DNA of 64,000 nt from Streptomyces marispadix (lineage in GTDB: Bacteria; Actinomycetota; Actinomycetes; Streptomycetales; Streptomycetaceae), in contig NZ_JAKWJU010000002.1 of NCBI RefSeq assembly GCF_022524345.1, positions 6,066,001-6,130,000 of the forward strand, given 5' to 3'. The stretch's first letter is position 1, and the number at the start of each line of letters is the position of its first letter. The notes under the pieces were generated by a model. The model was not told where the DNA came from, made no database searches, and saw nothing but the letters and a program-made list of their open reading frames with translations. Positions 22,884-39,918 of this stretch are shown one piece after another. The position numbers and the translations under genes are program-made.

Positions 22884-23819
22884 TCAGTGGCACAACTTGG
22901 CTTCGTGGGCCGCATGTCCGCGCGGCTCGAGCTGGAACGTGCAGTGCTCCACGTCGAAGTGATCGCCGAGGCAGAGCTGAAGATCGTGCAGCACCCGCTC
23001 GTGTGCCACGGAGTCCAGCGTCGGCTGCGTGACCACCACATGCGCCGAGAGCACCGGCATGCCCGAAGTGATCGTCCACACATGCAGATCGTGCAGATCG
23101 ACCACGCCCTCGACGGAGAGGATGTGCTCGCGCACCTCGGCCATGTCCACATCCCGCGGCGCGGCCTCCAGCAGTACGTCGATCGCCTCGCGGGCGAGCC
23201 GCAGCGTACGCGGGACGATCATCGCGCCGATGACGAGCGACGCCGCCGGGTCGGCGGCCTGCCAGCCGGTCGTGGCGATGATCGCCGCGGAGACGAGCAC
23301 GGCCAGCGACCCCAGCGCATCCGCCAGCACCTCCAGGAAGGCGCCGCGTACGTTGAGGCTCTCGCGCCGCCCGCGCAGGAGCAGCGAGAGCGAAATGACG
23401 TTCGCCACGAGGCCGATGGCGCCGAAGAGCGCCATGAGGGGGCCGTCGGTCGGTGCCGGTCGGATGAAGCGCTCGACGGACTCGAAGAGGACGTAGCCGC
23501 CGACTCCCAGCAGCAGAAGGCAGTTGGCGAGCGCGGCGAGGATCTCCGCGCGGGCGAAGCCGTAGGTGCGCCGCTCGCTCGACGGCCGGTTGGCGAAGTG
23601 GATGGCCAGAAGGGCCATGCCGAGGCCGAGGGCGTCCGTCGCCACATGGCCCGCGTCGGCGAGCAGTGCGAGCGAATCGGCCAGCAGTCCGCCGATGATC
23701 TGGGTGACCAGCACGGAGAGCGTGATGAACAGCGCGACCCGCAGCCGCTTGCGGTACGCGGCGGCGGCCGTGCCGCCCGCTGCCGGAGCGGGCCCTCCGT
23801 GAGCGTGCCCAGCGCCCAT
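22884..23819 (-). CDS. Cation diffusion facilitator (CDF), zinc-type exporter
   Basis: A six-helix membrane antiporter that exports divalent metal, most likely Zn2+. The N-terminal end is His-rich (GHAHGG). Helix II carries LALLADAGHVATDALGLG and helix V has FLEVLADALGSLAV, giving the HxxxD/DxxxD-type metal site seen in ZnT/CzcD members. The cytoplasmic C-terminal domain follows (VDLHDLHVWTITSG). I prefer the ATG at 23819, with GGAGG nine bases upstream, over the GTG 12 codons earlier. The length is 311 residues. No clear Zur box was found. Confidence 0.92.
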   Translation of the reverse strand: MGAGHAHGGPAPAAGGTAAAAYRKRLRVALFITLSVLVTQIIGGLLADSLALLADAGHVATDALGLGMALLAIHFANRPSSERRTYGFARAEILAALANCLLLLGVGGYVLFESVERFIRPAPTDGPLMALFGAIGLVANVISLSLLLRGRRESLNVRGAFLEVLADALGSLAVLVSAAIIATTGWQAADPAASLVIGAMIVPRTLRLAREAIDVLLEAAPRDVDMAEVREHILSVEGVVDLHDLHVWTITSGMPVLSAHVVVTQPTLDSVAHERVLHDLQLCLGDHFDVEHCTFQLEPRGHAAHEAKLCH

Positions 23820-24137
23820 CGCTGCGAGCCTCCGCTCGTCGGTCCTGTGCGTCACGCGCCTGTCGGTGGCAAGTCAACTACGCCGGACGGGCAGGTGCAA
23901 CGCGACGCTGAACACCGTTGTCATGTGCCGTGACCTGCGATTTCGAGGGCGACCGCCGCGGTCTTACGATCATGGCCGGGAGCAGGCGGCCGGTCCGGCC
24001 GCCTGCCAGCCGAAGGCGCGCGGCGCCCTCCCGGGGCCGTGATGCCGGAGCGGACCCGTCCTTGTCAGGGTCCGTATCCGGGTGCGCATCGGGGCCGAAG
24101 TCCGGCCGGTCTCCCCATCGGTGCATCGGTGTGCGAG
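23820..24137. other. Intergenic region upstream of the CDF gene, 318 bp
   Basis: The region holds the CDF promoter and the 3' flank of galE. I see one weak dyad (TGAACACCGTTGTCA at 23909-23923) but no recognisable Zur or MerR site and no gene. Confidence 0.4.
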
Positions 24138-24168: not shown

Positions 24169-25200
24169 TCAGCGCGCTTCCGGATGCCGCAGACACCAGC
24201 CCTCCCAGGCGGAGGAGATCATGTCCCGCACGCTGTGCCGCGCCGTCCAGCCCAGCTCCTTCTCCGCCAGCTCCGCCGAGGCGACCACGCGTGCCGGGTC
24301 GCCGGGCCGACGGGGCGCGACCTTCGCGGCGGGCTCGCGCCTGCCCGTGATCTCGGCGACGAGATCCGCCATCTCCCGTACGGAAAGGCCCCTGCCCGTA
24401 CCGATGTTCACGGTCAGGTCGCCCCCGCCGGTGCCCGACGGGGCGCCGCCGTCGGAGCCGCCCACGGACGCGGCCAGTCTGCGGGCCGCGGCCAGATGCG
24501 CCTCGGCCAGGTCCTGTACGTGGATGTAGTCCCGCACGCAGGTGCCGTCCTGCGTCGGATAGTCGTCACCGAAGATCAACGGCGCCTCGCCGCGGGTGAG
24601 CGCGTCGAAGAACATCGGCACGATGTTGAAGACCCCGGTGTCCGCCAGCCGCGGCTCGGCCGCCCCCGCGACGTTGAAGTACCGCAGGCAGGCCGTCGCC
24701 ACGCCCTCGGCACCGCCGACGGCACGCACCAGCCACTCTCCGGTGAGCTTCGTCTCACCGTAGGGATTCATCGGCACACACGGGGTCCCCTCGGTGACGA
24801 GGTCGACGTCGGGAGTGCCGTAGACCGCCGCGGAGGAGGAGAAGACGAAGCGGCGCACGCCCGCGGCCACGACGGCCTCCAGCAGCACCGTCAGCCCGTG
24901 CACGTTCTCCCGGTAGTAGCGCAGCGGCTGCTCGACGGACTCACCGACCTGCTTGCGGGCGGCGAGATGCACCACGCCCGTCACCCCGTGCTCGGCGAAC
25001 GTACGGTCCAGCAGCGCGCGGTCCAGGACCGAGCCGTGCACCAGCACCGGCTGCCCGGCGGGCCCCGCCAATCCGTCCAGGCGCTCGGGCACCCCCGCCG
25101 AGAGGTCGTCCAGAACGACCACCCGCTCACCGGCCTCCGCCATCGTCCGCGCGACGTGCGCCCCGATGTATCCCGCCCCGCCTGTGATCAACCACGTCAT
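24169..25200 (-). CDS. galE: UDP-glucose 4-epimerase
   Basis: A short-chain dehydrogenase-fold enzyme interconverting UDP-glucose and UDP-galactose with bound NAD. The dinucleotide motif is ITGGAGYIGAHVA at the N-terminus, the catalytic SSSAAVYG Ser region is near 118, and the YGETK Tyr-Lys pair is near 144. An 18-residue Gly/Ser insert near residue 255 is unusual but probably a loop. The length is 343 residues. It is divergent from the CDP-alcohol cassette across 410 bp, and it could supply UDP-galactose for the cassette's glycosyltransferase. Confidence 0.93.
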   Translation of the reverse strand: MTWLITGGAGYIGAHVARTMAEAGERVVVLDDLSAGVPERLDGLAGPAGQPVLVHGSVLDRALLDRTFAEHGVTGVVHLAARKQVGESVEQPLRYYRENVHGLTVLLEAVVAAGVRRFVFSSSAAVYGTPDVDLVTEGTPCVPMNPYGETKLTGEWLVRAVGGAEGVATACLRYFNVAGAAEPRLADTGVFNIVPMFFDALTRGEAPLIFGDDYPTQDGTCVRDYIHVQDLAEAHLAAARRLAASVGGSDGGAPSGTGGGDLTVNIGTGRGLSVREMADLVAEITGRREPAAKVAPRRPGDPARVVASAELAEKELGWTARHSVRDMISSAWEGWCLRHPEAR

Positions 25201-25610
25201 GCCCGGAAGCCTATCCGCCGCCCCTGCGGGCCCCTCCGGGCACGGAAGCCGCCTGCCCCACGCCTTCGCGGCCGTAGCGCTACGGGCCTCCGGCGCCGTC
25301 ACCCGAACGTGTAAGCGCGGGCACATGCGCACCGGCCCTCGTCCCAGGTCCCGGCGGTGCCATGGCGGGAACCGATGCCGGAAGCGGCGCCGCCGGCCCG
25401 CATTTGGCGCTCCGTCCAAGATCGACCATGCTGTGCGGCGGCAGTGCAACGCCCGTCCGGTGAACGCGCGATGAAGGCCCGGCTGTTCGATCCGATAGCC
25501 TCTGCCGACGCGCCGCCCGCCGACGGACGGGCCATGCGCGCCCTGCCCGCTGCCCGGCCGCCGCCCCGGCCGGAAGTCGCGCTGTGCCAGCGTCCAAGGA
25601 GTGAGTTCGA
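25201..25610. other. Divergent promoter region galE / CDP-alcohol cassette
   Basis: A 410-bp gap between divergent starts. It contains a perfect 14-bp palindrome CCGTAGCGCTACGG (25272-25285), about 70 bases upstream of galE, and AAGGAG at 25596-25601 in front of the cassette. I see no gene here; a TAGCCT box near 25496 could be a -10 element. Confidence 0.45.
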
Positions 25611-27551
25611 CTGTCGACCGCAATCCTCACCGGTCCGCCGGTCGCGGGGTCGCCGCTGGAGAGCGACCTGCGGTCGCTGGGGTTCGACGTACGCGTCGCC
25701 GCCGAACCGGGCCAGGTGTCCGCGGAAGTGGCCGCCGCCCCTGCCGGTGAGCGGATCGCCCTCGTCGACCCGCACTTCACCGGTCACGTACACGCCCTGC
25801 GGCTCGCGCTGACCGACCCGCGCTTCGCGGCAGGCGCCGTCGAGGGCGCGCTGTCGGTGCAGCCGCAGGCGCGCGGCGCGCTCACCCGCGCCCTGCACGA
25901 GACGGGCGCCGCGGACCACGCCCGTACGGCCGCCGAAACCGCGGGAGCGGCGGTGGACGCGGGCCGTTCCTCCGGTGACGAGGGCCAGGTCACCGCACCG
26001 CCGCGCACCCTGCCCGACGCCGTCGCCGCCGCCCTCGAAGCGGACGAAGTCGCAGTGCACCGCCCGGAGTTGGGCCCGCTCGTCGCGTCCGTCCCCACCG
26101 GCGAGGAGGCACGCGCCGCCGCACGTGAGGCAGTCGGCGCCGTCGACGACGAGGCCGTGCGCCTGCGCAACGCGGTCAAGGCCCGCGACGGCTTCTTCAC
26201 CACGTTCTGCGTCAGCCCCTACTCCCGCTACATCGCCCGCTGGTGCGCCCGCCGTGGCCTGACTCCCAACCAGGTCACCACCGCGTCCCTGGTCACCGCG
26301 CTGATCGCCGCCGCCTGCGCGGCCACGGGCACCCGTCCGGGGTTCGTCGTCGCCGGCGTACTGCTGATCGCCTCCTTCGTGCTGGACGCGACCGACGGAC
26401 AGCTCGCCCGCTACGACCTCCAGTACTCCACCCTCGGCGCCTGGCTCGACGCCACCTTCGACCGCGCCAAGGAGTACGCCTACTACGCAGGGCTCGCCCT
26501 CGGCGCCTCACGCGGCGGCGACGACGTATGGGCGCTGGCGCTCGGCGCGATGGTCCTTCAGACCGTCCGGCACGTCGTCGACTTCTCCTTCAACGAGGCC
26601 AACCACGACGTCACCGCCAACACCAGCCCCACCGCGGCGCTCTCCAGCCGCCTCGACAGCGTCGGCTGGACGGTCTGGCTGCGCCGCATGATCATCCTGC
26701 CCATCGGTGAACGCTGGGCGCTCATCGCGGTGTTGACCGCCGCCACCACACCCCGCATCACCTTCGTGGTGCTGCTGATCGGATGCGCCCTCGCCGCCTG
26801 CTACACCACCGCGGGCCGCGTGCTGCGCTCCCTCACACGAAGGGCGAACCGCACCGACCGCGCCGCCCTCGCGCTCGCCGAACTCGCCGACGGCGGACCG
26901 CCGGCCGAGGCCTTCGCCTCGTTCGCCCGCCGCGCCCGGGTGCGCCTGCCCGGATTCGGGTCCCCCGCCGTGGCGCTTGTGGGCACCGCCGTGCTTCTCG
27001 CCTGCGCCCTGTGGACGCCGCAGGGCAGCGTCTGGACCCCTCTGGCCGCCCTCCTCTACGCCCTGACCTCGGGCCTCGCCGTCTGCGTACCGCTGCGGGG
27101 CGCACTGGACTGGCTCGCGCCGCCCCTGTTCCGTACCGCCGAATACGTGCTCGTGCTCGTCCTCGCGGTACGCGCGGACCAATCAGGGGTGAACGGCGCG
27201 CTGCCCGCCGCTTTCGGCCTGGTGGCGGCGGTCGCCTACCATCACTACGACACGGTGTACCGCATTCGCGGCGGCACCGGCGCGCCTCCGCACTGGCTTG
27301 TCCGTGCGACCGGGGGTCACGAAGGACGAGCCCTGGTCGTAGCCGTCGCAGCGGCCCTGTGGGCCGACGGCCACGGCACGGACCGGGCGGGGCAGGGACA
27401 GGTTTTGGGCCAGGAACTGGGCCAAGGTTTCACCATCGCGCTGACCACGCTCGCTGTGGCCATCGCGGCAGTGGTGCTCGTCGAGAGCATCCGCTTCTGG
27501 GTGTCCTCCAAAGCACCCGCCGTACACGACGAAACAGGAGAACCCGCATGA
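25611..27551 (+). CDS. CDP-alcohol phosphatidyltransferase-like protein with long N-terminal domain
   Basis: First gene of the exporter cassette, 646 residues. Residues 1-190 form a soluble domain (STAILTGPPVAGSPL...) that resembles a worn nucleotidyltransferase or DIPPS-type N-terminus; no catalytic motif is clear. The CDP-alcohol phosphotransferase domain begins near 205. Its signature is complete: D259, D262-G263, A266-R267, G276, D280, D284. About six to eight membrane helices follow. It would transfer a phospho-alcohol from a CDP-alcohol to a second alcohol or lipid. The only well-placed start is CTG at 25611, nine bases after AAGGAG; GTG at 25716 would remove 35 family-like residues. 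Confidence 0.85.
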   Translation: MSTAILTGPPVAGSPLESDLRSLGFDVRVAAEPGQVSAEVAAAPAGERIALVDPHFTGHVHALRLALTDPRFAAGAVEGALSVQPQARGALTRALHETGAADHARTAAETAGAAVDAGRSSGDEGQVTAPPRTLPDAVAAALEADEVAVHRPELGPLVASVPTGEEARAAAREAVGAVDDEAVRLRNAVKARDGFFTTFCVSPYSRYIARWCARRGLTPNQVTTASLVTALIAAACAATGTRPGFVVAGVLLIASFVLDATDGQLARYDLQYSTLGAWLDATFDRAKEYAYYAGLALGASRGGDDVWALALGAMVLQTVRHVVDFSFNEANHDVTANTSPTAALSSRLDSVGWTVWLRRMIILPIGERWALIAVLTAATTPRITFVVLLIGCALAACYTTAGRVLRSLTRRANRTDRAALALAELADGGPPAEAFASFARRARVRLPGFGSPAVALVGTAVLLACALWTPQGSVWTPLAALLYALTSGLAVCVPLRGALDWLAPPLFRTAEYVLVLVLAVRADQSGVNGALPAAFGLVAAVAYHHYDTVYRIRGGTGAPPHWLVRATGGHEGRALVVAVAAALWADGHGTDRAGQGQVLGQELGQGFTIALTTLAVAIAAVVLVESIRFWVSSKAPAVHDETGEPA

Positions 27552-28300
27552 TCGGCCTCGTGCTGGCCGCCGGCGCCGGACGGCGTCTGCGTCCCTACAC
27601 CGACACCCTCCCCAAGGCGCTCGTGCCGGTGGGCCCCGAGGGCGACGAGGAGTCCCAGACCGTCCTCGACATCGCCCTCGCCAACTTCGCCGCCGTCGGG
27701 CTCACCGACGTCGCCGTCGTCGTCGGCTACCGCAAGGAGGCCGTGTACGAGCGCAAGGAGGCCCTGGAGAAGAAGCACGGCGTCAAGCTCACCCTCGTCG
27801 ACAACGACAAGGCCGAGGAGTGGAACAACGCCTACTCCCTCTACTGCGCCCGCGACGTCATCAAGCAGGGCGCCCTCCTCGCCAACGGCGACACCGTCCA
27901 CCCCGTCTCCGTCGAGAAGACCCTCCTCGACGCCCGCGGCGACGGCCAGAAGATCATCCTCGCCCTCGACACGGTCAAGCACCTCGACGAGGAGGAGATG
28001 AAGGTCGTCACCGACCCGGAGAAGGGCGTCCAGCAGATCACCAAGCTGATGGACCCCTCCACCGCCAGCGGCGAGTACATCGGCCTCACCCTCATCGAGC
28101 CCGAGGCGGCCGAGGAGCTGGCCGACGCCCTGAAGACCACCTTCGAGCGCGACCCGCAGCTCTACTACGAGGACGGCTACCAGGAGCTGGTCAACCGCGG
28201 CTTCAAGATCGACGTGGCCCCCATCGGCGACGTTCAGTGGGTCGAGATCGACAACCACGACGACCTCGCAAAGGGCAGGGAGATCGCATGCCGGTACTGA
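27548..28300 (+). CDS. Sugar/polyol-phosphate nucleotidyltransferase (IPCT-like)
   Basis: A cytoplasmic NTP transferase of 250 residues. The N-terminal motif LAAGAGRRLRPYTDTLPK and the metal-binding GALLANGDTV are those of sugar-phosphate and inositol-1-phosphate/phosphocholine cytidylyltransferases. Its gene partner is a CDP-alcohol transferase, so CTP is the likely nucleotide and a CDP-polyol the likely product; that is inference. Translation is coupled by ATGA overlap to the gene before, and it overlaps the next gene by 13 bases. Choline versus inositol versus glycerol phosphate cannot be decided from the sequence. Confidence 0.88.
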   Translation: MIGLVLAAGAGRRLRPYTDTLPKALVPVGPEGDEESQTVLDIALANFAAVGLTDVAVVVGYRKEAVYERKEALEKKHGVKLTLVDNDKAEEWNNAYSLYCARDVIKQGALLANGDTVHPVSVEKTLLDARGDGQKIILALDTVKHLDEEEMKVVTDPEKGVQQITKLMDPSTASGEYIGLTLIEPEAAEELADALKTTFERDPQLYYEDGYQELVNRGFKIDVAPIGDVQWVEIDNHDDLAKGREIACRY

Positions 28301-29349
28301 CCCGCCTCATCCCGTCGCCCGTCGTCGTCGACATCAGCCGCGGCGCCCTGGACGACCTGGCGGGCCTGCTGGCCGATCAGCGGATCTCCTCCAACGGCAA
28401 GCTCGCCTTCGCCATCAGCGGTGGCTCGGGCGCGGCTCTGCGTGAGCGCTTCGCCCCCGCCCTCCCCAGCGCGGACTGGTACGAGGTCGGCGGCGGCACC
28501 ATCGACGACGCCATCAAGCTCGCCGACTCCATGAAGTCCGGGCGCTACGACGCGGTCGTGGGCCTGGGCGGCGGCAAGATCATCGACTGTGCGAAGTTCG
28601 CCGCGGCGCGCATCGGCCTGCCGCTGGTCGCCGTGGCCACCAACCTCAGCCATGACGGCCTGTGTTCGCCGGTCGCCACGCTCGACAACGACGCGGGCCG
28701 CGGCTCCTACGGCGTGCCCAATCCGATCGCCGTCGTCATCGACCTCGACGTCATCAGGGAGGCGCCGGCCCGGTTCGTACGCTCCGGGATCGGCGACGCC
28801 ATCTCCAACATCTCCGCCGTACGGGACTGGGAGCTGGCCCACACCGTGCGCGGCGAGGACATCGACGGCCTCGCCGCCGCCATGGCCCGCCAGGCCGGGG
28901 AGGCCGTGCTGCGGCACCCCGGCGGGGTCGGCGACGACGCCTTCCTCCAAGTGCTCGCCGAGGGACTGGTGCTGACCGGCATCTCCATGTCGGTCGCCGG
29001 TGACAGCCGCCCCGCCTCGGGGGCCTGCCACGAGATCAACCACGCCTTCGACCTGCTCTACCCCAAGCGCGCCGCCAGCCACGGCGAACAGTGCGGTCTG
29101 GGGGCGGCGTTCGCCACGTTCCTGCGGGGCGACCGGGAGATGTCGATGCTGATGGTCGAGGTGCTGCGGCGCCACGGCCTTCCCGTATTGCCTCACGAAA
29201 TCGGCTTCGACGAGGACGAGTTCGTGAAAGTGGTCGAATACGCCCCGGACACCCGGCCCGGGCGGTACACCATTCTCGAACACCTCGACCTGTCCGCCGA
29301 CCAGATCAGGGACGCATACCGCGACTATGCACAAGCCATCAGTAGCTGA
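28288..29349 (+). CDS. Glycerol-1-phosphate-dehydrogenase-like Fe/Zn alcohol dehydrogenase
   Basis: A 353-residue enzyme of the dehydroquinate synthase / glycerol-1-phosphate dehydrogenase superfamily (archaeal EgsA, Bacillus AraM). The NAD-binding loop VVGLGGGKIIDCAKFAA is near 90-106. Three metal ligands are in place: Asp170 in GIGDAIS, His248 in CHEINH and His265 in SHGEQCG. Known relatives reduce dihydroxyacetone phosphate to sn-glycerol-1-phosphate, but some make cyclitols. It sits between the nucleotidyltransferase and a second CDP-alcohol transferase and overlaps both, so it probably makes the phospho-polyol that is activated by CTP. Confidence 0.87.
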   Translation: MPVLTRLIPSPVVVDISRGALDDLAGLLADQRISSNGKLAFAISGGSGAALRERFAPALPSADWYEVGGGTIDDAIKLADSMKSGRYDAVVGLGGGKIIDCAKFAAARIGLPLVAVATNLSHDGLCSPVATLDNDAGRGSYGVPNPIAVVIDLDVIREAPARFVRSGIGDAISNISAVRDWELAHTVRGEDIDGLAAAMARQAGEAVLRHPGGVGDDAFLQVLAEGLVLTGISMSVAGDSRPASGACHEINHAFDLLYPKRAASHGEQCGLGAAFATFLRGDREMSMLMVEVLRRHGLPVLPHEIGFDEDEFVKVVEYAPDTRPGRYTILEHLDLSADQIRDAYRDYAQAISS

Positions 29350-30106
29350 ACTCCGCCCGGTCGTACATCCCGAGGGAGTGAAGGACCGGCGCAGCGGTGA
29401 GCACTGGGCGGGGCGGCTCTACATGCGCGAGGTGTCCCTGCGCATCGACCGGCACCTGGTGAACACGCGGGTCACGCCCAATCAGCTCACGTACCTGATG
29501 ACTGTCGCCGGTTTCCTCGCCGCCCCGGCACTGCTGGTGCCGGGGATCGGCGGGGCTGTACTCGGCGCGGTGATGGTCCAGCTCTATCTGCTCCTGGACT
29601 GCGTGGACGGCGAACTGGCGCGCTGGAAGAAGCAGTACTCCCTCGGCGGCGTGTATCTGGACCGAGTCGGTGCCTATCTGTGCGACGCCGCCGTCCTGCT
29701 GGGCCTCGGCCTGCGCGCCGCCGACCTGTGGGGCGGCGGCCGGATCGACTGGCTGTGGGCCTTCCTGGGCACCCTCGCCGCGCTCGGCGCCGTACTGATC
29801 AAGGCGGAGACCGACCTGGTGGGCGTGGCACGCCACCAGAACGGGCTGCCGCCCGTGAAGGAGGCCGCGAGCGAGCCGCGTTCGTCAGGTGTGGCGCTGT
29901 TGCGCAAGGCCGCGGCGGCGCTGAGGTTCCACCGGCTCATACTCGGGATCGAGGCGTCACTGCTGATCGTCCTCCTGGCGGTCCTGGACCAGATCAGAGG
30001 CGACCTCTTCTTCACCAGGCTCGGAGTGGCCGTGCTCGCGGGCATCGCCGTCGTCCAGACGCTGCTGCATCTGGTGTCCATCCTCGCCTCCAGCAGGCTC
30101 AAGTGA
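29327..30106 (+). CDS. Second CDP-alcohol phosphatidyltransferase-family protein, altered motif
   Basis: An integral membrane protein of 259 residues with about six helices. The CDP-alcohol signature reads D91, D94-G95, A98-R99, G108, D112, but the fourth Asp, the proposed catalytic base, is Ala116 (LDRVGAYLCDA). Either another residue (for example Asp120) serves, or the protein does not catalyse the standard transfer. It overlaps the dehydrogenase gene by 23 bases, so it is tightly coupled. With the first transferase it may form a pair with divided roles. Confidence 0.85.
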   Translation: MHKPSVAELRPVVHPEGVKDRRSGEHWAGRLYMREVSLRIDRHLVNTRVTPNQLTYLMTVAGFLAAPALLVPGIGGAVLGAVMVQLYLLLDCVDGELARWKKQYSLGGVYLDRVGAYLCDAAVLLGLGLRAADLWGGGRIDWLWAFLGTLAALGAVLIKAETDLVGVARHQNGLPPVKEAASEPRSSGVALLRKAAAALRFHRLILGIEASLLIVLLAVLDQIRGDLFFTRLGVAVLAGIAVVQTLLHLVSILASSRLK

Positions 30107-30120
30107 CGGAGGGAGCCCTC

Positions 30121-31041
30121 ATGCCGCAGCAGAGCCCCCAGCAGAGCCCCGGGCGTTCCGCGCAGACGCCGAGGCTGGGCGCCGTCGTGCTGACGATGGG
30201 CAACCGCCCCGAGGAACTGCGTGCGCTGCTCGACTCCGTCGCCAAGCAGGACGGCGACCGGATCGAGACCGTCGTGGTCGGTAACGGCGCGCCGCTGCCC
30301 GAGTTGCCGGAAGGTGTACGGACGGTCGAGCTTCCGGAAAATCTCGGCATCCCCGGAGGCCGCAACGTGGGCATCGAGGCGTTCGGCCCCTCCGGCGCGG
30401 ACGTCGACGCCCTGCTCTTCCTCGACGACGACGGCCTGCTCCCGGAGACGGACACCGCCGAACTCGTACGCGAGGCATTCGCCGCCGACCCCACCCTGGG
30501 AATCATCAGCTTCCGCATCGCCGACCCCGACACGGGCGAGACCCAGCGCCGCCATGTGCCGAGGCTGCGCGCCGCCGATCCGATGCGCTCCTCCCGGGTC
30601 ACCACCTTCCTCGGTGGCGCAAACGCCGTACGTACGAAGGTCATCGCCGAAGTCGGCGGACTCCCGGACGAGTTCTTCTACGCACATGAGGAGACGGACC
30701 TGGCCTGGCGGGCCCTGGACGCGGGCTGGTCGATCGACTACCGCGCCGACATGGTGCTGCACCACCCCACCACCGCCCCCAGCCGTCACGCGGTCTACCA
30801 CCGCATGGTCGCCCGTAACCGGGTCTGGCTCGCCCGCCGCAACCTGCCCGCCCCCCTGATCCCCGTCTACCTCGGCGTCTGGCTGCTCCTCACCCTCGCC
30901 CGCCGCCCCTCGCGCCCGGCGCTTCGCGCGTGGCTCGGCGGATTCAGGGAGGGGTGGGCCAAACCGTGCGGCGCCCGCAGGCCCATGCGGTGGCGTACGG
31001 TGTGGCGCCTGACCCGACTAGGTCGCCCGCCGGTGATCTGA
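30121..31041 (+). CDS. Family 2 glycosyltransferase
   Basis: An inverting GT-A glycosyltransferase of 306 residues, cytoplasmic face. The N-terminal strand is LGAVVLTMGNRPEELRALL, the metal-binding FLDDDG is near residue 100, and a donor-site HEETDLAWRALDAGW run is near 190. A hydrophobic stretch near 245-258 (LIPVYLGVWLLLTLA) suggests membrane contact. It follows the transferase gene by 14 bases with GGAGGG before the ATG. It probably adds a sugar to the lipid- or polyol-phosphate intermediate; the galE product is one possible donor. Confidence 0.9.
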   Translation: MPQQSPQQSPGRSAQTPRLGAVVLTMGNRPEELRALLDSVAKQDGDRIETVVVGNGAPLPELPEGVRTVELPENLGIPGGRNVGIEAFGPSGADVDALLFLDDDGLLPETDTAELVREAFAADPTLGIISFRIADPDTGETQRRHVPRLRAADPMRSSRVTTFLGGANAVRTKVIAEVGGLPDEFFYAHEETDLAWRALDAGWSIDYRADMVLHHPTTAPSRHAVYHRMVARNRVWLARRNLPAPLIPVYLGVWLLLTLARRPSRPALRAWLGGFREGWAKPCGARRPMRWRTVWRLTRLGRPPVI

Positions 31042-31108
31042 CAAGCTCGTCTCCAGCACCACCATTTCCCCCTGTTCCGCTTCGCGTGTGAGGACGAAAG
31101 TTTCCAAC

Positions 31109-32050
31109 GTGACCGAGACAACGCACGGCGGTGCGGTGGGCGTGAAGCCCCCGCCCACACCGGATGACCGTTTGTCCCCGGCCGAGCTCGCGGCCAAGTA
31201 CGGCTTGTCGGTGAGCGGGGCGCGCCCCTCGCTGCCGGAGTACGTAAGGCAGTTGTGGGCCCGGCGCCACTTCATCCTCGCCTTCTCGCGGGCGAAGCTC
31301 ACCGCGCAGTACAGCCAGGCGAAGCTGGGCCAGCTCTGGCAGGTGGTGACGCCGCTGCTGAACGCCGCCGTCTACTTCTTCATCTTCGGCGTGATCATGG
31401 GCGGCCGTAACGGCATCCCCGGCGGCCAGGGCAACTACGTGCCCTTCCTGGTGACGGGCGTGTTCGTCTTCACCTTCACCCAGACCTCCGTGCTCAACGG
31501 CGTCCGTGCGATCTCCGGCAATCTCGGGCTGGTCCGCGCGCTGCACTTCCCGCGGGCGTCGCTGCCGATCTCCATCTCGCTCCAGCAGTTGCAGCAACTG
31601 CTGTACTCGATGATCGTGCTCGTGCTGATCCTGGTCGGATTCGGTCATTTCCCCGCCTGGTCCTGGCTGTTGATCGCGCCGGCGCTCGTCTGCCAGTTCC
31701 TCTTCAACACCGGCCTGGCGCTGATCATGGCGAGGCTCGGCAGCAAGACCCCCGACCTGGCGCAGCTCATGCCGTTCATCACGCGGACCTGGCTGTACGC
31801 GTCGGGCGTGATGTTCTTCCTGCCGTACCAGCTCTCGAAGATCGACGCCCCGACGTGGGTGGTCGACCTGCTCCAGGCCAACCCGGCCGCGGTGTACATG
31901 GATCTGATCCGGTTCGCGTTCATCGACGGCTATCCGGCCTCCTCCCTGCCGCCGCACGTCTGGTCGCTGGCGCTCGGCTGGGGCCTGCTCGCGGGCATCG
32001 GCGGATTTGTTTTCTTCTGGAAGTCGGAGGAGCGTTATGGCCGTGGCTGA
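31109..32050 (+). CDS. ABC-2 exporter permease (TagG/Wzm type)
   Basis: Membrane subunit of a polysaccharide/teichoic-acid-type ABC exporter, about 313 residues. A cytoplasmic N-terminal part with the amphipathic SRAKLTAQYSQAKLG is followed by six helices (for example LLNAAVYFFIFGVIMGG and SMIVLVLILVGFGHF). The start is uncertain: GTG 31109 fits relatives, and GTG 31088 would add seven residues. The 3' end overlaps the ATPase gene by 14 bases. It carries an undecaprenyl- or phospholipid-linked product across the membrane in known relatives. Confidence 0.9.
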   Translation: MTETTHGGAVGVKPPPTPDDRLSPAELAAKYGLSVSGARPSLPEYVRQLWARRHFILAFSRAKLTAQYSQAKLGQLWQVVTPLLNAAVYFFIFGVIMGGRNGIPGGQGNYVPFLVTGVFVFTFTQTSVLNGVRAISGNLGLVRALHFPRASLPISISLQQLQQLLYSMIVLVLILVGFGHFPAWSWLLIAPALVCQFLFNTGLALIMARLGSKTPDLAQLMPFITRTWLYASGVMFFLPYQLSKIDAPTWVVDLLQANPAAVYMDLIRFAFIDGYPASSLPPHVWSLALGWGLLAGIGGFVFFWKSEERYGRG

Positions 32051-32870
32051 GGACACCCAGGAGGAGACGAAGACGGTCCAGGAGCAGGCGAGCCCTGCCC
32101 GGCAGGAGCCGTGGATCCCCACCGTCATCGCCGAGGACCTGCACATCGTCTACCGCGTCTACGGCGGCGCGAAGGGCAAGGGCAGCGCGACCGCGGCGCT
32201 GAACCGCATCATCCGCCGCAAGCCGGGCGGCGGCAGCGTCCGCGAGGTGCACGCGGTCAGGGGCGTCAGCTTCACCGCCTACCGCGGCCAGGCCATCGGA
32301 CTCATCGGCTCCAACGGCTCCGGCAAGTCGACGCTGCTGCGCGCCATCGCGGGTCTGCTGCCCGCCGAGAGCGGATGCGTCTACACCAACGGCCAGCCGT
32401 CGCTGCTGGGCGTCAACGCGGCGCTGATGAACGACCTCACTGGCGAGCGGAACGTCGTGCTCGGCGGGCTCGCGATGGGAATGTCGCGCGACCAGATCGC
32501 CGAGCGCTACCAGGGCATCGTCGACTTCTCCGGCATCAACGAGAAGGGCGACTTCATCACGCTCCCGATGCGCACCTACTCCTCCGGCATGGCGGCACGG
32601 CTGCGCTTCTCCATCGCCGCCGCGAAGGACCACGACGTGCTGATGATCGACGAGGCGCTGGCGACGGGCGACAAGAAGTTCCAGCGGCGCTCCGAGCAGC
32701 GGGTGCGCGAACTGCGCGAGGAGGCCGGCACTGTCTTCCTCGTGAGCCACAACAACAAGTCGATCCGCGACACCTGCGAGCGGACGCTGTGGCTGGAGAA
32801 GGGCGAGCTGGTGCACGACGGCCCGACTGACGAAGTGCTCAAGGAGTACGAGAAGTTCACGGGCAAGTAG
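32037..32870 (+). CDS. ABC exporter ATPase (TagH/Wzt type)
   Basis: Nucleotide-binding subunit partnering the permease just upstream, 277 residues. Walker A is GSNGSGKS (91-98), the signature is YSSGMAARLRF, and Walker B is VLMIDEALATGDKKF. There is no C-terminal carbohydrate-binding extension of the long Wzt kind, so export of a modified chain end need not be recognised. The ATG at 32037 has GGAGGAG before it; the upstream in-frame ATG at 32007 lies inside the permease. Last gene of the cassette; a perfect hairpin follows. Confidence 0.92.
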   Translation: MAVAEDTQEETKTVQEQASPARQEPWIPTVIAEDLHIVYRVYGGAKGKGSATAALNRIIRRKPGGGSVREVHAVRGVSFTAYRGQAIGLIGSNGSGKSTLLRAIAGLLPAESGCVYTNGQPSLLGVNAALMNDLTGERNVVLGGLAMGMSRDQIAERYQGIVDFSGINEKGDFITLPMRTYSSGMAARLRFSIAAAKDHDVLMIDEALATGDKKFQRRSEQRVRELREEAGTVFLVSHNNKSIRDTCERTLWLEKGELVHDGPTDEVLKEYEKFTGK

Positions 32871-32906
32871 CGCCCTGCGTGCACCTGCCGCGCACGCGAA
32901 ACGAAG

Positions 32907-32949
32907 GCGGCGGCTGATCCGGACCCCCGAGTACCGGATCAGCCGCCGC
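32907..32949. terminator. Bidirectional terminator after the exporter cassette
   Basis: A perfect 16-bp stem (GCGGCGGCTGATCCGG with its complement, arms 32907-32922 and 32934-32949) closes an 11-nt loop, between the convergent ATPase and MMPL genes. Confidence 0.85.
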
Positions 32950-33001
32950 TGTCGTGTGCGCCCCCGGCTCGGGGCGCCCGCGTCGCCGGATCTGCGTCGC
33001 G

Positions 33002-35314
33002 TCAGACGCCCGCGCCCGTGGGCGCCTGCGCCTCTCCTTGCGTCTCTCCCCGCGGCCGCTGTTCCCGCGCTTTTCCGGCTTCAGGCTGCTGCGAGTCGTA
33101 GCGTCCGGGCTCGGTGCCCGGCCGCCCGCCCGACTCCTCCAGACCGACCCTGCCGTGCAGCCTCCGCAGCACACGCGGCGCGTACCAGGCACCGCGTCCC
33201 AGCAGCCGCATCGCCGCCGGTACGAGCACACCGCGTACGGCGACCGCGTCGATCAGGATCGCCAGCCCGCTGCCCAGCCCGAACATCTGGAGGAAGCTGA
33301 TCTCGCTGGTCGCGAAGGCGAAGAAGCTCACCGCCAGCAGGCCCGCCGCCATCGTCACGATGCGTCCGGTGCGCGACAGTCCCCGGGTGACGGCCGTTGC
33401 GTTGTCGGCGCCGCCGTCGTGCAGTTCCTTGATGCGGCTGGTGACGAACACCTCGTAGTCCATGGAGAGTCCGAAGACGATGCAGAACATCAGCACCGTC
33501 ATCGAGGTGTCCATGGGCATCTCCGTGAAGCCCAGCACCGACGACAGATGCCCCTCCTGGAAGATCCACACCATCGCGCCGATGGACGCCGTAAGGCTCA
33601 CCGCGTTCAGCACCAGCGCCCTCAGCGGCTGTAGGACGCTGCCCGTGAAGAGGAAGAGCAGCACGAAGGTGCTCCCTACGACCATCCCGATCGCCCCCGG
33701 CAGCCGGTCGCCGATCGACGCCTTGGTGTCGACGAGCTGTGCGTCGCGCCCGCCCACCAGGGCCTCGCCGGTGCCCGGCGCCTCCAGGTCGCGGACCTCG
33801 CGGACCACGTCCTGACGCTCCTCCGCCGTCGAGCCCGCCTCCGGTACGACGTTGATCAGCTCGGCGTCCGCTGTGCCCAGCGCGGCCTGTGCCCGCCCTG
33901 CCGGAGCGGCCTTTCCGTCCACGTGTAGGCCGCTGCTCGCCTCGACCCGGGCCACGCCGTCGAGACGCGATATCCGCCCCGCGTATGCGTCGAGTGCGTC
34001 CCTCGGCACTCCCGCCGTGGTGACGACCTGCGCCGCCTCCGTGGAACTGCCGGGGAACTCCTTCTCCAGCACGCTGCTGACCTGCCTGCTCTGTGCGTCC
34101 TCCGGAAGCACGCGCTCGTCCGGCATCCCGAAGCGCGCCCCCAGCAGCGGGCTCGCCGCCAGCAGCAGCACCGCGAGTACGGGCAGCGCCGTGAGCACGG
34201 GACGGCGCATGACCGTGCGTGCGAGCCGCCCCCACACCGGTGCGTCCGGACGCCGTACGGCCTCGGCCCACGGCAGCCGCCCCTTGTTCACCCGGTGTCC
34301 CAGCACCGCCAGCAGCGCCGGTACGACGATCAGCGCCGCGAGCGCCGCAATGGCCACGACCCCGATCCCCGCGTAGGCGAACGACCGCAGGAAGAAGGGC
34401 GGGAAGAGCAGCAGGGCCGCCAGCGCTGCGACGACCGTGGCCGCCGAGAAGGCGATCGTGCGCCCGGCCGTCGTCACCGTCGTACGCAGCGCGTCCCCGA
34501 CCTCGTCGCCCTCCGAGAGCCGCTCACGGAAGCGGCTGACGATCAGCAGGCCGTAGTCGATGCCGAGGCCGAGCCCCAGGGCGGTGGTGAGGTTGACCGA
34601 GAACACCGAGACATCGGTGATGCTGCCGAGCACGAACAACTCCGCGAAGGTGCCGAGGATCGCGATCAGCCCGATCGCGAGCGGCAGCAGCGCGGCCACG
34701 AAGCTGCCGAAGGCGACGACGAGCAGCACCAGCGTCAGCGGCACCGCGATGGATTCGGCCACCGCCAGGTCCTTGGAGACCTGCCCGGAGATGTCGTTGT
34801 TGAGCGCGGCGCCGCCGCCCGCCCGCACCTCGACCGGGCCCTGGTCGCCGCTCCACTCGTCGGTGATCTCCTCGGTGCGGTCGGCGACTTGGCTGCTGTC
34901 GCCCTTCACATGGGCCAGTACGAGCGCCTGCGAGCCGTCCCGTGAGGTGAGCGCGGAGCCGCCCGCGTCCCAGTAGGAGGAGACATGGGAGACCTGCTCC
35001 GACTCCCGCAGCTCCTTCGTGAGTTTCTCCCCGGCCTCGCGCACCGGGGCCGACTTCAGGCTCGCGCTGCCGCCGTCGGCGCGCACGAGCAGTACGAGGT
35101 TGTCCTCGCCGCCGAACTTGTCGGCGATGAGAGTGCGTGCGCGGCTCGACGGTGCGTCGGGGTCCTCGAAGCCGCCCGCCTGGAGCTTGCCGAAGGCCCC
35201 GAATCCGACGGCTCCCATGGCCACCACGGCTATGAGGCTGAGTACGAGCAGAGCACGCGGCCGGTGCAGGGCCAGCTCCGCGATTCTTCGTAGCACTGTC
35301 TTCGTCCCCCCCAT
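33002..35314 (-). CDS. MMPL/RND-family membrane transporter
   Basis: A 770-residue exporter of the MMPL branch of RND proteins. One helix near 20-42 is followed by an extracytoplasmic domain to about 165, a block of helices (for example LALIVVPALLAVLGH near 330), a second periplasmic-type domain (about 395-540) and a second block with the family run GLSMDYEVFVTSRIKE near 620. It moves lipids or hydrophobic molecules in known cases. It is divergent from a TetR gene with two matching operator-like repeats between them, so repression and release by a ligand is likely. The substrate is unknown. Confidence 0.92.
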   Translation of the reverse strand: MGGTKTVLRRIAELALHRPRALLVLSLIAVVAMGAVGFGAFGKLQAGGFEDPDAPSSRARTLIADKFGGEDNLVLLVRADGGSASLKSAPVREAGEKLTKELRESEQVSHVSSYWDAGGSALTSRDGSQALVLAHVKGDSSQVADRTEEITDEWSGDQGPVEVRAGGGAALNNDISGQVSKDLAVAESIAVPLTLVLLVVAFGSFVAALLPLAIGLIAILGTFAELFVLGSITDVSVFSVNLTTALGLGLGIDYGLLIVSRFRERLSEGDEVGDALRTTVTTAGRTIAFSAATVVAALAALLLFPPFFLRSFAYAGIGVVAIAALAALIVVPALLAVLGHRVNKGRLPWAEAVRRPDAPVWGRLARTVMRRPVLTALPVLAVLLLAASPLLGARFGMPDERVLPEDAQSRQVSSVLEKEFPGSSTEAAQVVTTAGVPRDALDAYAGRISRLDGVARVEASSGLHVDGKAAPAGRAQAALGTADAELINVVPEAGSTAEERQDVVREVRDLEAPGTGEALVGGRDAQLVDTKASIGDRLPGAIGMVVGSTFVLLFLFTGSVLQPLRALVLNAVSLTASIGAMVWIFQEGHLSSVLGFTEMPMDTSMTVLMFCIVFGLSMDYEVFVTSRIKELHDGGADNATAVTRGLSRTGRIVTMAAGLLAVSFFAFATSEISFLQMFGLGSGLAILIDAVAVRGVLVPAAMRLLGRGAWYAPRVLRRLHGRVGLEESGGRPGTEPGRYDSQQPEAGKAREQRPRGETQGEAQAPTGAGV

Positions 35315-36453: not shown

Positions 36454-37368
36454 GTGGTGAGCGCGGAGGCGGACGCGCATGCGCGTGCCGTCCTCGCCAA
36501 GGCCACGCGGGAGAACTTCCCAGTGGCGCCCGGATTCCTGCCGCGCGAGTGGCGCTACGACCTGATGGCCGTGTACGGCTACGCCCGCCTCGTCGACGAC
36601 ATCGGCGACGGCGACCTCGCCCCCGGCGGACTCGACGCCGAATATCTGGGCCTCGACCGCACACATGGGAGCGAGCCCGGCACCGACCGCCTCTCGATGC
36701 TCGACGCCTTCGAGACCGACCTGCTCCGCCTCTTCGACGACGCCCGTGCAGCCCCGGGGCACCCGCTGCTGCGGGCCCTGGCACCGACCGTGCGCCGCCG
36801 CCGCCTTTCACCCGAGCCGTTCCTCGCCCTCATCGAGGCCAACCGCCAGGACCAGAAGGTCCGCCGCTACACCGACCACGCCGAACTCGTCGGCTACTGC
36901 GAGCTGTCCGCCAACCCCGTGGGACACCTCGTACTGGCCATCACCGGAACCGCCACCCCCGAACGGATCCGCTACTCCGACGACGTCTGCACCGCCCTCC
37001 AGATCGTCGAGCACCTCCAGGACGTCGCCGAGGACCTCGGACGGGACCGCATCTACCTGCCCGCCGAGGACATGGCCCGCTTCCACGTCACCGAGTCCGA
37101 CCTGGCCGCCCCCCGTGCCAACGCGTCGGTCCGTGCCCTGCTGGCCTACGAAGCCGACCGCGCCCACGCCCTGCTCTCCGCCGGCGACCCCCTGGTGGCC
37201 AGCGTCCGCGGCCGGCTCCGGCTGCTGCTCGCCGGGTTCACAGGCGGCGGACGCGCCACCCTCCGTGCCATCAGCCGCGCCGGATACGACGTACTCCCAG
37301 GACCTCCCCGGGCCACCACGCGCGGGCTGCTGCGCGAGGTGGCCGCAACCCTGCGACGAGAGGGGTGA
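36454..37368 (+). CDS. hpnC: Squalene synthase HpnC (presqualene diphosphate to hydroxysqualene)
   Basis: First enzyme gene of the hopanoid operon, about 304 residues, prenyltransferase-like all-helical fold. The acidic motif ARLVDDIGDGD (about 46) and the second QDVAEDLGRDRIYLP (about 190) are those of trans-isoprenyl synthases in the HpnC branch. It hydrolyses presqualene diphosphate to hydroxysqualene in the three-enzyme squalene route. Only GTG starts (36454, 36457) are possible, because a TAG lies upstream in frame. A 7-codon ATG frame (36437-36460) with upstream GGAG ends at the GTG as GTGA, so it may be a coupling leader or the trace of a 5' frameshift. Confidence 0.9.
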   Translation: MVSAEADAHARAVLAKATRENFPVAPGFLPREWRYDLMAVYGYARLVDDIGDGDLAPGGLDAEYLGLDRTHGSEPGTDRLSMLDAFETDLLRLFDDARAAPGHPLLRALAPTVRRRRLSPEPFLALIEANRQDQKVRRYTDHAELVGYCELSANPVGHLVLAITGTATPERIRYSDDVCTALQIVEHLQDVAEDLGRDRIYLPAEDMARFHVTESDLAAPRANASVRALLAYEADRAHALLSAGDPLVASVRGRLRLLLAGFTGGGRATLRAISRAGYDVLPGPPRATTRGLLREVAATLRREG

Positions 37369-37375
37369 GCGGACC

Positions 37376-38314
37376 GTGGACAGAGCCCGGCCCGTACCGC
37401 ACGTGCCGCCGCCGGTGGCCGCCGCGTACGACTACTGCGAGTCCGTGACGGGCCAGCAGGCCCGCAACTTCGCCTACGGAATCCGGTTGCTGCCAGGCGG
37501 CAAACGCCGGGCCATGTCCGCGCTCTACGCCTTCTCCCGACGGGTCGACGACATCGGCGACGGCCCCCTGCCGCAGACGGCCAAGGTCGCCCGGCTCGAA
37601 CAGACACGGGAACTGCTCGGCCGCATCCGCGACGGCGCCATCGACCAGGACGACACCGACCCCGTGGCCGTCGCCCTTGCGGACGCCGCGCGCCGCTACC
37701 CCGTCCCGATGGGCGGGCTCGACGAACTCATCGACGGGGTGCTGCTGGACGTGCACGGCACCACATACGGCAGTTGGGAGGAGCTGGAGGTCTACTGCCG
37801 GTGCGTGGCCGGTGCGATCGGCCGGCTGTCGCTCGGCGTGTTCGGCACCCTTCCCGGGGTGCGCGACGCCGTACGCGCCTCCGAGTACGCCAACACCCTG
37901 GGGCTCGCGCTCCAACTCACCAATATCCTCAGGGATCTTCGGGAAGACGCGGATCACGGACGTATGTATCTGCCCGCGGAGGATCTTGAAAAGTTCGGCT
38001 GCTCCACGGACTTCCGCAGTGATGTACGGCCCGGGAGTGACTTCCGGGGGCTGGTGCATCACGAAGTCCAGCGCGCCCGCGCCCTGTTCACCCAGGGCTA
38101 CCGGCTGCTTCCGCTCCTCGACCGCAGATCGGGCGCTTGCGTCGCCGCGATGGCCGGGATCTACCAGCGTCTGCTGGAACGTATCGCCGCCGACCCCTAC
38201 GCCGTGCTGCGCGAGCGGGTCTCCCTGCCCAGCAGACAGAAGGCGTACGTGGCGGTGCGCGGACTCACCGGCATCGACGCCCGGAACGCCACGAAACGGA
38301 GCGTAAGCACATGA
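37376..38314 (+). CDS. hpnD: Presqualene diphosphate synthase HpnD
   Basis: A 312-residue prenyl synthase joining two farnesyl diphosphates into presqualene diphosphate. The two acidic motifs are SRRVDDIGDG near 46 and LTNILRDLREDADHGRMYLP near 180, the second typical of squalene/phytoene synthase-like enzymes. GTG at 37376 follows a purine-rich GAGAGG(G) stretch within the operon, seven bases past hpnC. The last codons overlap hpnE as ATGA, so it is translationally coupled. Confidence 0.93.
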   Translation: MDRARPVPHVPPPVAAAYDYCESVTGQQARNFAYGIRLLPGGKRRAMSALYAFSRRVDDIGDGPLPQTAKVARLEQTRELLGRIRDGAIDQDDTDPVAVALADAARRYPVPMGGLDELIDGVLLDVHGTTYGSWEELEVYCRCVAGAIGRLSLGVFGTLPGVRDAVRASEYANTLGLALQLTNILRDLREDADHGRMYLPAEDLEKFGCSTDFRSDVRPGSDFRGLVHHEVQRARALFTQGYRLLPLLDRRSGACVAAMAGIYQRLLERIAADPYAVLRERVSLPSRQKAYVAVRGLTGIDARNATKRSVST

Positions 38315-39918
38315 CCGGATCCGAGCGCGGTCCTCAGCCCCGCCGTGATGCCGACGAAGCCCATGACGCCCCCCGGCCCGGCGGTGCCGTCGTGGTCGGG
38401 GGCGGCATCGCCGGTACCACCGCCGCGCTTCGGCTCGCCGACGCCGGAGTTCCGACCACCCTGCTGGAGTCGCGTCCGCGTCTCGGTGGCCTTGCCTTCT
38501 CGTTCCGGCGCGACTCCCCGGCCGGGAGGATCACCGTCGACAACGGGCAGCATGTGCACCTGCGTTGCTGCACCGCGTACACCTGGTTCCTCCAGCGGAT
38601 CGGCGGCGCCGGGCTCGCGCCCTTGCAGCGCCGTCTCGACGTACCCGTACTCGATGTGGCCCGTGCGAAGCCCCGGTTGGCCCGACTGCGCCGCAACTCC
38701 CTGCCCGTACCACTGCACTTGGCGGCCGGTCTCGCCAACTACCGTCATCTGACGGCGGGGGAGCGCGGCCGCGCCGCCCGCGCCGCGCTCGCTCTGCGTG
38801 AACTCGACCCGGCCGACCCGGCGTTGGACAGCGTCGACTTCGCGACCTGGCTGCACGGCCAGGGCCAGAGCGACCGCGCCATCCGGGCGCTGTGGGACCT
38901 GGTGGGCACAGCCACCCTCAACGCCCGTGCCCCGCAAGCCTCGTTGGGCCTCGCCGCGAAGGTCTTCCGTACGGGCCTGCTGTCCGAACCGGGCGCCGCC
39001 GACATCGGAGTCTCGCGCGTACCGCTCGGGCATCTGCACGACACCCTCGCCCGAAGGGCACTGCACGCGGCCGGTGTTCGCGTACTGACCCAGGCGCGCG
39101 CCCGCGCCCTCACCGCGGTGCCCGGCGGGGGCTGGACGGTCGACGCCGAACACGGTCAGGGCTCCGCGGCGGAGCACCGGGAACACCGTGCCGCCGCCGT
39201 CGTGCTGGCGGTGCCCCAGCGGGAGGCGCACGGCCTGCTGCCCGACGGAGCGCTGCCCGCGCCCGGCCGCCTGCTGGAGATCGGGACCGCCCCGATCCTC
39301 AACCTCCACGTCGTCTACGACCGGCCCGTGCTGCGCCGCCCCTTCTTCGCCGCGCTCAACTCGCCCGTCCAGTGGGTCTTCGACCGCACCGGCGCCGCCG
39401 GACTCGGCGAGGGCCAGTACCTCGCCGTCTCGCAGTCCGCCGCCCAGCAGGAGATCGACCAGCCGGTCGCGGCGCTGCGCGAGCGCTATCTCCCGGAGCT
39501 GGCACGGCTGTTGCCCGCCGCCCGCACCGCCCGCGTGCTCGACTTCTTCGTCACCCGTGAGCGCACCGCCACCTTCGACCCCCGCCCCGGCGTCGGACGG
39601 CTGCGCCCCGCTGCCCGTACGGCGGCGCCCGGTGTCTGCCTCGCCGGAGCCTGGACGGATACTGGCTGGCCGGCGTCCATGGAGAGCGCCGTACGGAGTG
39701 GGACGACCGCCGCCAGGGAGGCGCTCACCGCCATGGGCCGCCCGTACGACAATGATCCGGTGCCCGGCACCACACGAAAGGGCGGTGGCATGAGCAGCGC
39801 CGACAGAGGCGGCACGTCCGGCGGACCCGGCCGGACGGCACCGCACGTACCCCCCACACCCGCACCGCGAGCAGCCGCAGCCCCACGAGCGGCGCACAAC
39901 GCAGAGGAGACCCCGTGA
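38311..39918 (+). CDS. hpnE: Hydroxysqualene dehydroxylase HpnE
   Basis: An FAD-dependent amine-oxidase-fold enzyme of 535 residues that reduces hydroxysqualene to squalene. The nucleotide-binding motif AVVVGGGIAGTTAALRL is near residue 25, followed by VDNGQHVHLRCCTAYTWF near 80. The C-terminal FAD contact is CLAGAWTDTGWPASMESAV near 447. After residue 480 the chain is a long Gly/Pro/Ala-rich tail without predicted fold, longer than most relatives. ATGA overlap with hpnD and GTGA overlap with the next gene. Confidence 0.92.
   Translation: MTGSERGPQPRRDADEAHDAPRPGGAVVVGGGIAGTTAALRLADAGVPTTLLESRPRLGGLAFSFRRDSPAGRITVDNGQHVHLRCCTAYTWFLQRIGGAGLAPLQRRLDVPVLDVARAKPRLARLRRNSLPVPLHLAAGLANYRHLTAGERGRAARAALALRELDPADPALDSVDFATWLHGQGQSDRAIRALWDLVGTATLNARAPQASLGLAAKVFRTGLLSEPGAADIGVSRVPLGHLHDTLARRALHAAGVRVLTQARARALTAVPGGGWTVDAEHGQGSAAEHREHRAAAVVLAVPQREAHGLLPDGALPAPGRLLEIGTAPILNLHVVYDRPVLRRPFFAALNSPVQWVFDRTGAAGLGEGQYLAVSQSAAQQEIDQPVAALRERYLPELARLLPAARTARVLDFFVTRERTATFDPRPGVGRLRPAARTAAPGVCLAGAWTDTGWPASMESAVRSGTTAAREALTAMGRPYDNDPVPGTTRKGGGMSSADRGGTSGGPGRTAPHVPPTPAPRAAAAPRAAHNAEETP

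Follow-up and report, generated by a model that had tools for sequence, protein, structure and literature searches.

A seven-gene cassette on the forward strand of a 64,000-nucleotide stretch of Streptomyces marispadix DNA (the window) probably forms a single operon whose product is a teichoic-acid-like envelope glycopolymer containing glycerol phosphate, a reading to which we assign a probability of about 0.6. The genes, at positions 25611-32870, are in order cdpA, ntp, gdh, cdpB, gt2, and the permease and ATPase genes of an ATP-binding cassette (ABC) transporter. The source genome is that of a Streptomyces (98.93% complete), and its dehydrogenase is 98% identical to those of S. abyssalis and of strain WMMB 322. 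A first-pass annotation made from the sequence alone had assigned seven genes to these families at this place and on this strand, and open reading frames together with Pfam and NCBIfam matches confirmed them all. The route that it proposed, in which a phospho-polyol is made, activated with cytidine triphosphate (CTP), transferred, glycosylated and exported, fits the gene set. A surface polymer is more likely than transfer to a second polyol or to a small lipid, which it had also suggested, because of the exporter class and because TagA/TagF-like, glycosyltransferase and sulfotransferase genes neighbour some homologous modules.

In the proposed mechanism, the dehydrogenase Gdh would convert dihydroxyacetone phosphate to sn-glycerol-1-phosphate (G1P), from which the nucleotidyltransferase (NTase) Ntp would form, with CTP, a CDP-glycerol that is the mirror image of the donor used by TagF. 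Two membrane CDP-alcohol phosphotransferases (CDP-APs), CdpB and CdpA, would then take glycerol-1-phosphate off CDP and place it on a lipid-linked acceptor in the roles of Bacillus TagB and TagF; CdpB and the family-2 glycosyltransferase (GT2) probably make the primer or linkage unit, and CdpA would extend it or add repeats. GT2 would attach a sugar, perhaps galactose by way of the galE product, the TagG/TagH-like transporter would flip the polymer on its lipid, and a ligase of LCP type, encoded outside the cassette, would fix it to the wall. The substrates, the stereochemistry, the way in which CdpA and CdpB share the work, the step order, the ligase and the final product are all as we infer them. 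More tentatively, and with rather less than an even chance of being right, the cassette may be a second, chemically distinct route to teichoic-acid-type polymers, namely an actinobacterial wall polymer of sn-glycerol-1-phosphate, the archaeal enantiomer, formed via CDP-1-glycerol, with CDP-APs replacing TagB/TagF in priming and polymerisation and with CdpB as a new CDP-AP subfamily whose catalytic site is rebuilt (His or Ala at the fourth aspartate position).

Gdh scored 238.5 bits on the NCBIfam glycerol-1-phosphate dehydrogenase (G1PDH) model (PRK00843), the next best being glycerol dehydrogenase at 90.8 bits, and its best solved relative is a G1PDH (4RGQ, E 1.3e-42). Residues D170, H248 and H265, which we take to be the metal ligands, are kept in the alignment, as is the GGG loop. 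Across 80 Streptomyces loci (the best 80 of at least 528 genome-contig stretches, and so the nearest relatives with no even sampling), the motifs G[IV]GD, HDG and HGEQ are present in 80/80 and SRP[AC]SGACHE..HA in 77/80, and an alignment with distant homologues displayed one Asp-to-Glu exchange among the presumed ligands (in L132). The available part of a published G1PDH analysis aligns a Streptomyces homologue, which may not be the gdh of this cassette, and has a group of Gammaproteobacteria and Actinobacteria in its tree (PMC5059525). On the model score, the solved relatives and that analysis, so far as its text was available, sn-glycerol-1-phosphate is the most plausible candidate for the polyol, as had been suggested at first. 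Ntp, for its part, aligned with 1JYK at E 2.3e-12, over residues 3-107 only, and retains the NTase loop and PK motifs in 80/80 loci.

The bacterial use of G1P named in the accessible text of PMC8262930 is in an ether lipid that occurs in Bacillales alone. An archaeal-type ether lipid made by AraM and PcrB was rejected here: PcrB gave no match in 61 genomes drawn evenly across Streptomyces (0/61), the control matching in B. subtilis and archaea, which makes it unlikely that G1P takes its known bacterial course here. The resemblance to the AraM/EgsA plus PcrB route of Bacillus lies in the G1PDH-like Gdh; the difference, beyond PcrB, is that gdh adjoins a nucleotidyltransferase gene.

CDP-APs carry the motif D1xxD2GxxAR...GxxxD3xxxD4, whose four aspartates bind two metals. 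CdpA has the full motif in 78/80 loci, the other two loci ending early. Structure comparison gave it a two-domain layout, an IspD-like fold (1-178) followed by the CDP-AP, although the usual LAAGxGxR...PK motif was not seen by eye in the CdpA sequences. The order, an NTase-like domain before a CDP-AP, is that of AF2299 and of IPCT-DIPPS from Archaeoglobus; unlike these, CdpA shows no usual NTase motif by eye and carries DUF5941, and the cassette has a separate NTase, a G1PDH-like gene and an ABC exporter. From residue 190 onwards CdpA overlays the layout of the eukaryotic enzymes CPT1/CEPT1 (191-641 on CPT1 by VIA-align), but the same structures gave weak Foldseek values (E 5.5e-3 to 0.34), and DUF5941 has no clear sequence relation to CDP-AP (2.3% and 1.1% probability in profile comparison). 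The dimerisation half of CEPT1 has been proposed to be a decayed second CDP-AP unit (PMC10156783, in the part available). Whether DUF5941 is another such unit was left open, given the CPT1 overlay on one side and the weak Foldseek and profile scores on the other; a literature search on DUF5941 found nothing.

The overlay raises the alternative of a Kennedy-type membrane (glyco)phospholipid, in which CdpA would move glycerol-1-phosphate to diacylglycerol or another lipid alcohol, GT2 would glycosylate the product and the ABC transporter would flip a small glycolipid. We consider this unlikely: the Foldseek values are weak and a common fold does not reveal the acceptor, the transporter belongs to the TagG/Wzm class, which exports polymers, and glycosyltransferase, sulfotransferase and TagA/TagF-like genes lie near some homologous modules.

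CdpB, of which AF2299 (4O6M) is the closest solved relative, retains D1-D3 and lacks D4 in 80/80 Streptomyces loci, where the position holds Ala in 60 (with Asp four residues on) or His in 20 (with Glu four on). Elsewhere the residue is His in 7/7 cassettes outside the class and in L193, L194, G037 and G043, and Ala in four cassettes of the same taxonomic order and in the four stand-alone paralogues fetched. By comparison, the six other CDP-APs of the window genome, CdpA included, all have D4, five in the strict pattern and one (L198) in a looser pattern. The His in distant lineages suggests that His was the ancestral D4 state of the CdpB subfamily. According to the available text on CEPT1, the D158A variant retains ~15% of activity, and the proposed base is a His close to the site (PMC10156783); by motif reading, D158 corresponds to D4. 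As D1-D3 are intact, CdpB is probably still active, though altered. Paralogues of cdpB that stand alone, with 50-53% identity, were found in 5/61 Streptomyces (L169-L172; G011 C7:545426-546178). No other cassette gene lay beside them in the stretches fetched, and the three neighbouring genes scanned, in L170 and L171, were uninformative.

The GT2 motifs DDD and HEETDLAWR are present in 80/80 loci, and the best solved relative of the permease is TarG (6JBH, E 1.9e-10). These genes bear on the possibility of a soluble phosphodiester solute, an analogue of di-glycerol-phosphate or di-inositol-phosphate, with the transporter serving something else. The resemblance of CdpA and CdpB to AF2299 and IPCT-DIPPS would suit such a product, but genes 6-7 belong to the conserved Streptomyces operon, GT2 keeps its motifs, and growth falls when the probable transporter is silenced (PMC12892944, in its available part), so that we regard it as very unlikely.

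Conservation within Streptomyces was high. Genes 1-6 were found in 80/80 loci and the ATPase gene in 78/80 (the remaining two loci being short), in a fixed order in 80/80, which excludes chance linkage. Among the 61 genus genomes, gdh and cdpB were present and adjacent in 61/61. The 120 best matches of a homologue search were near relatives, those with names being Streptomyces except for one 'Actinobacteria bacterium'. Linkage in relatives was the refuting test set beforehand, and in Streptomyces the genes stay linked.

At the order level gdh was found in 108/119 genomes, the misses being 11 of the 15 non-Streptomyces genomes. Across the phylum, gdh matched at E<=1e-30 in 42/396 genomes and cdpB at E<=1e-15 in 24/396, some of the latter being weak general CDP-AP matches. 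A gdh of at least 300 bits occurred in 21/396 and had an adjacent cdpB in 19 (12 Streptomyces and 7 outside the class); the two exceptions were G262, where the CDP-AP is a different one, and G428, whose contig is 4.3 kb long. Beyond the class, L126 has all seven genes in order and uninterrupted, and L127 and L128 have them in order with gt2 and the permease gene separated by ~5 kb of other genes, at ~28-58% identity over the three full cassettes. Genes 1-5 occur in L129, and gdh, cdpB and gt2 alone in L133. Four relatives of the same order have all seven genes, with cdpA apart in one (L168). In farther relatives the core ntp-gdh-cdpB-gt2 is mostly intact, with cdpA or the exporter sometimes moved, interrupted or outside the stretch fetched.

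The neighbours of homologous modules mostly point to the cell surface. Glycosyltransferase and sulfotransferase genes lie near the cassettes of L126 and L127, hinting at a sulfated polymer there. In L137, from another actinobacterial family, genes for a G1PDH, a CDP-AP and a TagA/TarA-like protein stand in a row, and in L193 cdpB-gt2 is followed by a weak TagF-family gene (PF04464, 25.8 bits, cut-off 22.1). The NTase-G1PDH pair of L136 and L141 is accompanied by DUF4012 and phosphodiesterase genes, and in L136 also by a bacterial sugar transferase gene.

The cassette resembles the Bacillus wall teichoic acid pathway (TagD, TagA, TagB, TagF, TagGH) in combining a predicted CDP-activated glycerol phosphate, a glycosyltransferase and a TagG/TagH-like exporter in one locus. 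In contrast to that pathway, it has no TagD-type gene, using instead a LicC-like enzyme and CDP-APs, and its glycerol-phosphate is predicted to be the opposite enantiomer. Neither the TagB/TagF family (PF04464) nor TagA (PF03808) matched in the window genome, the controls matching in B. subtilis, so that by sequence search a canonical Tag polymerase is no evident source of glycerol-phosphate polymer in this strain. The cassette would work like the Tag pathway yet lacks TagF and TagA members, and it is therefore regarded as a variant. The mycobacterial galactan exporter with GlfT1, in which a GT2 presumably also lies beside the transporter, offers a second comparison: the cassette permease and ATPase score on its models and gt2 adjoins the transporter genes, whereas the scores are below cut-off and the cassette adds a G1PDH-like enzyme, an NTase and two CDP-APs.

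Published work on S. albidoflavus is consistent with an envelope function. In the accessible text of a 2026 paper (PMC12892944), silencing of tagH/tagG (XNR_0273-0274) by CRISPR interference lowers growth, these being validated hits, and XNR_0275-0279 are said to make teichoic acids; by the gene number, order and annotation given there, XNR_0273-0279 are very probably this cassette. A syntenic Streptomyces region (crtB, tagH, tagG, araM, CDP-alcohol transferase, GT2 and nucleotidyltransferase) is linked with teichoic acid in the part of PMC13118837 available. The initial statement that no named system has this content therefore holds for the G1P logic, which is unnamed in the texts available, but not for the synteny, which PMC13118837, and very probably PMC12892944, call teichoic-acid-related. 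The accessible portions of these two papers contain no argument for G1P or for replacement by CDP-alcohol transferases, and a literature search found no proposal of a G1P-based teichoic acid, most subscription papers being outside its reach. What this analysis adds is the G1P logic and the absence of the fourth catalytic aspartate from CdpB. In S. coelicolor the cassette would be SCO6752-SCO6758, counted between zitB (SCO6751; PMC5472717) and the hopanoid genes SCO6759-71 (PMC2374992), both consulted in part, and assuming no galE between. SCO6753 is a predicted PhoP target with a PHO box in the available text of PMC4173021. PHO-box-like sites in the window numbered 8 against 5.04 expected, with at least 8 in 14/100 shuffles; the best (25461-25476 and 44739-44754, one mismatch each) are not claimed as PHO boxes. 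The tagGH/TagR system of S. roseosporus, which has its own TetR gene according to the part of PMC10269677 available, could not be tied to the cassette.

Several points weigh against a glycerol-phosphate wall polymer. TagF-family genes occur in 56/61 genus genomes (they were not found in the window strain and four others), which would make the cassette a second system in most species. No TagO, LCP or known-type polymerase gene lies within the cassette, no search aimed at TagO or LCP having been made. The wall polymers reported from Streptomyces, in the available text of PMC11481543, are teichulosonic acid, which has no phosphate, and a minor poly(diglycosyl 1-phosphate) with a galactose-N-acetylglucosamine repeat. 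By analogy with CEPT1 D158A (PMC10156783, seen in part), CdpB may be catalytically weak. On the NCBIfam models the permease reached 52.7 bits for galactan export permease (cut-off 380) and the ATPase 177.7 bits for TagH (cut-off 320), and no NCBIfam model matched the TagF-like protein of L193. No exporter was found in the stretches covered of L129 and L133, gene order is partly different in L130 and L132, and G262 has ntp-gdh-CDP-AP with no GT2 or exporter nearby; among the neighbours scanned of four distant cassettes, those of L129 and L132 included no glycan genes. Galactose is a weak guess for the sugar: a divergent galE is present in 54/80 Streptomyces loci and missing from 26/80 (some of them cut), and none was matched in 20 more distant loci. 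Its adjacency, including that to ntp on the same strand in 4/4 loci of the same order, no more than hints at galactose.

Substrate identity is a further such point. Gdh lies below the curated G1PDH cut-off of 413 bits, and another ketose phosphate is possible as its substrate; the best NCBIfam model for Ntp is a UTP enzyme (62 bits, cut-off 400), leaving the nucleotide unsettled. With solved relatives of Ntp among which are enzymes acting on phosphocholine, phosphonates and sugar phosphates, these scores would also fit a Gdh and Ntp that use another phospho-polyol (tetritol, ribitol or inositol phosphate), giving a different polyol-phosphate polymer. That alternative seems to us quite improbable, as by score Gdh is nearest to G1PDH among characterised families and a Streptomyces homologue figures in the published G1PDH analysis (PMC5059525, as far as available).

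A hopanoid cluster lies downstream (window 36454-46284: two squalene/phytoene synthases, amine oxidase, polyprenyl synthase, squalene-hopene cyclase, HpnH-type radical SAM and class-III aminotransferase), and the cassette might accordingly decorate hopanoids, for instance as a phosphoglycerol hopanoid, and export them. The association is frequent: hpnC is downstream in 65/80 loci, the other 15 being cut short, and shc lies within 15 kb in 52/58 genus genomes that have it, within 30 kb in two more and on other contigs in four. Yet two of 59 good-quality genus genomes (G037 and G043) have the cassette and no shc, hpnC had no match in 20 distant loci, and hpnC, shc and hpnH had none in the four loci of the same order (stretches of 20 kb or less in both sets). 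Hopanoid decoration is hence scarcely probable, and the cluster is not an obligate partner of the cassette. The loci of G037 and G043 (L163 and L164), in near-complete genomes without an shc match (E<=1e-100), have two hpnC-like genes beside the cassette, a case of squalene genes lacking the cyclase.

Coordinates of the cassette and its flanking features in the window.
Feature	Position	Strand	Remarks
galE (UDP-glucose 4-epimerase)	24169..25200, start approximate	-	divergent neighbour; NCBIfam galE 280.9 bits, cut-off 262.3; Pfam Epimerase
cdpA	25611..27551	+	IspD-like nucleotidyltransferase fold 1-178, CDP-alcohol phosphotransferase 190-411, DUF5941 412-646; CTG start
ntp, nucleotidyltransferase	27548..28300	+	Pfam NTP_transferase; nearest solved relative CTP:phosphocholine cytidylyltransferase
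gdh, glycerol-1-phosphate dehydrogenase-like (EgsA/AraM group)	28288..29349	+	PF13685
cdpB, second CDP-alcohol phosphotransferase	29327..30106	+	PF01066; fourth motif Asp replaced by Ala
gt2, family-2 glycosyltransferase	30103..31041	+	PF00535; start GTG 30103 or ATG 30121
TagG/Wzm-like ABC permease	31109..32050	+	PF01061
TagH/Wzt-like ABC ATPase, 277 aa	32037..32870	+	PF00005; no further domain found
22-nt inverted repeat, possible terminator	32901..32955	.	91% complementary, without T-run

The gene layout agrees largely with the first-pass annotation. The overlaps of 4-23 bases that it gave for genes 1-4 were confirmed as 4 (cdpA/ntp), 13 (ntp/gdh) and 23 bases (gdh/cdpB), kept in 80/80, 80/80 and 75/80 Streptomyces loci, and so were the permease/ATPase overlap (14 bases) and the divergent galE. 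The 14-bp gap placed before gt2 is more likely an overlap of 4 bases between its GTG at 30103 and the cdpB stop, a form recovered in 72/80 orthologous loci by a start-choosing script, and on this basis genes 1-5 are probably all translationally coupled. As for the terminator said to end the run, the 22-nt inverted repeat is there, but a scan found no T-run terminator after the cassette, its sole match being at 31796 against a chance mean of 1.7.

The cdpA frame starts at a non-standard CTG. The element GGAGTGAGTTCG stands exactly, just before this start, in 70/76 orthologues with enough upstream sequence; in the 67 of these 70 that were parsed, the start codon is CTG in 63 and TTG in 4, lying 1, 2 or 3 bases after the element in 53, 10 and 4 loci, respectively. 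Because of this variable spacing the frame cannot begin at the upstream GTG. The conserved element (with the start codon, window 25595-25613) is longer than a ribosome-binding site needs.

Elsewhere in the window, an MMPL-family exporter gene (33002-35314) lies between the cassette and the hopanoid genes; it is present in 13/80 loci, some loci being cut, and is probably a lineage-specific insertion or replacement. A cation-efflux gene (22884-23855) is positioned like S. coelicolor zitB (SCO6751), the likeness being one of position alone; zitB is a Zur-activated zinc exporter in the available text of PMC5472717. An open frame of 1188 aa (12978-16544) had no Pfam match.

In the 'lipid divide', glycerol-1-phosphate is counted on the archaeal side. 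If the proposed pathway is correct, G1P would gain a second bacterial role, which would explain the retention of the gene across Streptomyces, and the leading genus of antibiotic producers would have, in the cassette, an envelope pathway that matters for fitness.

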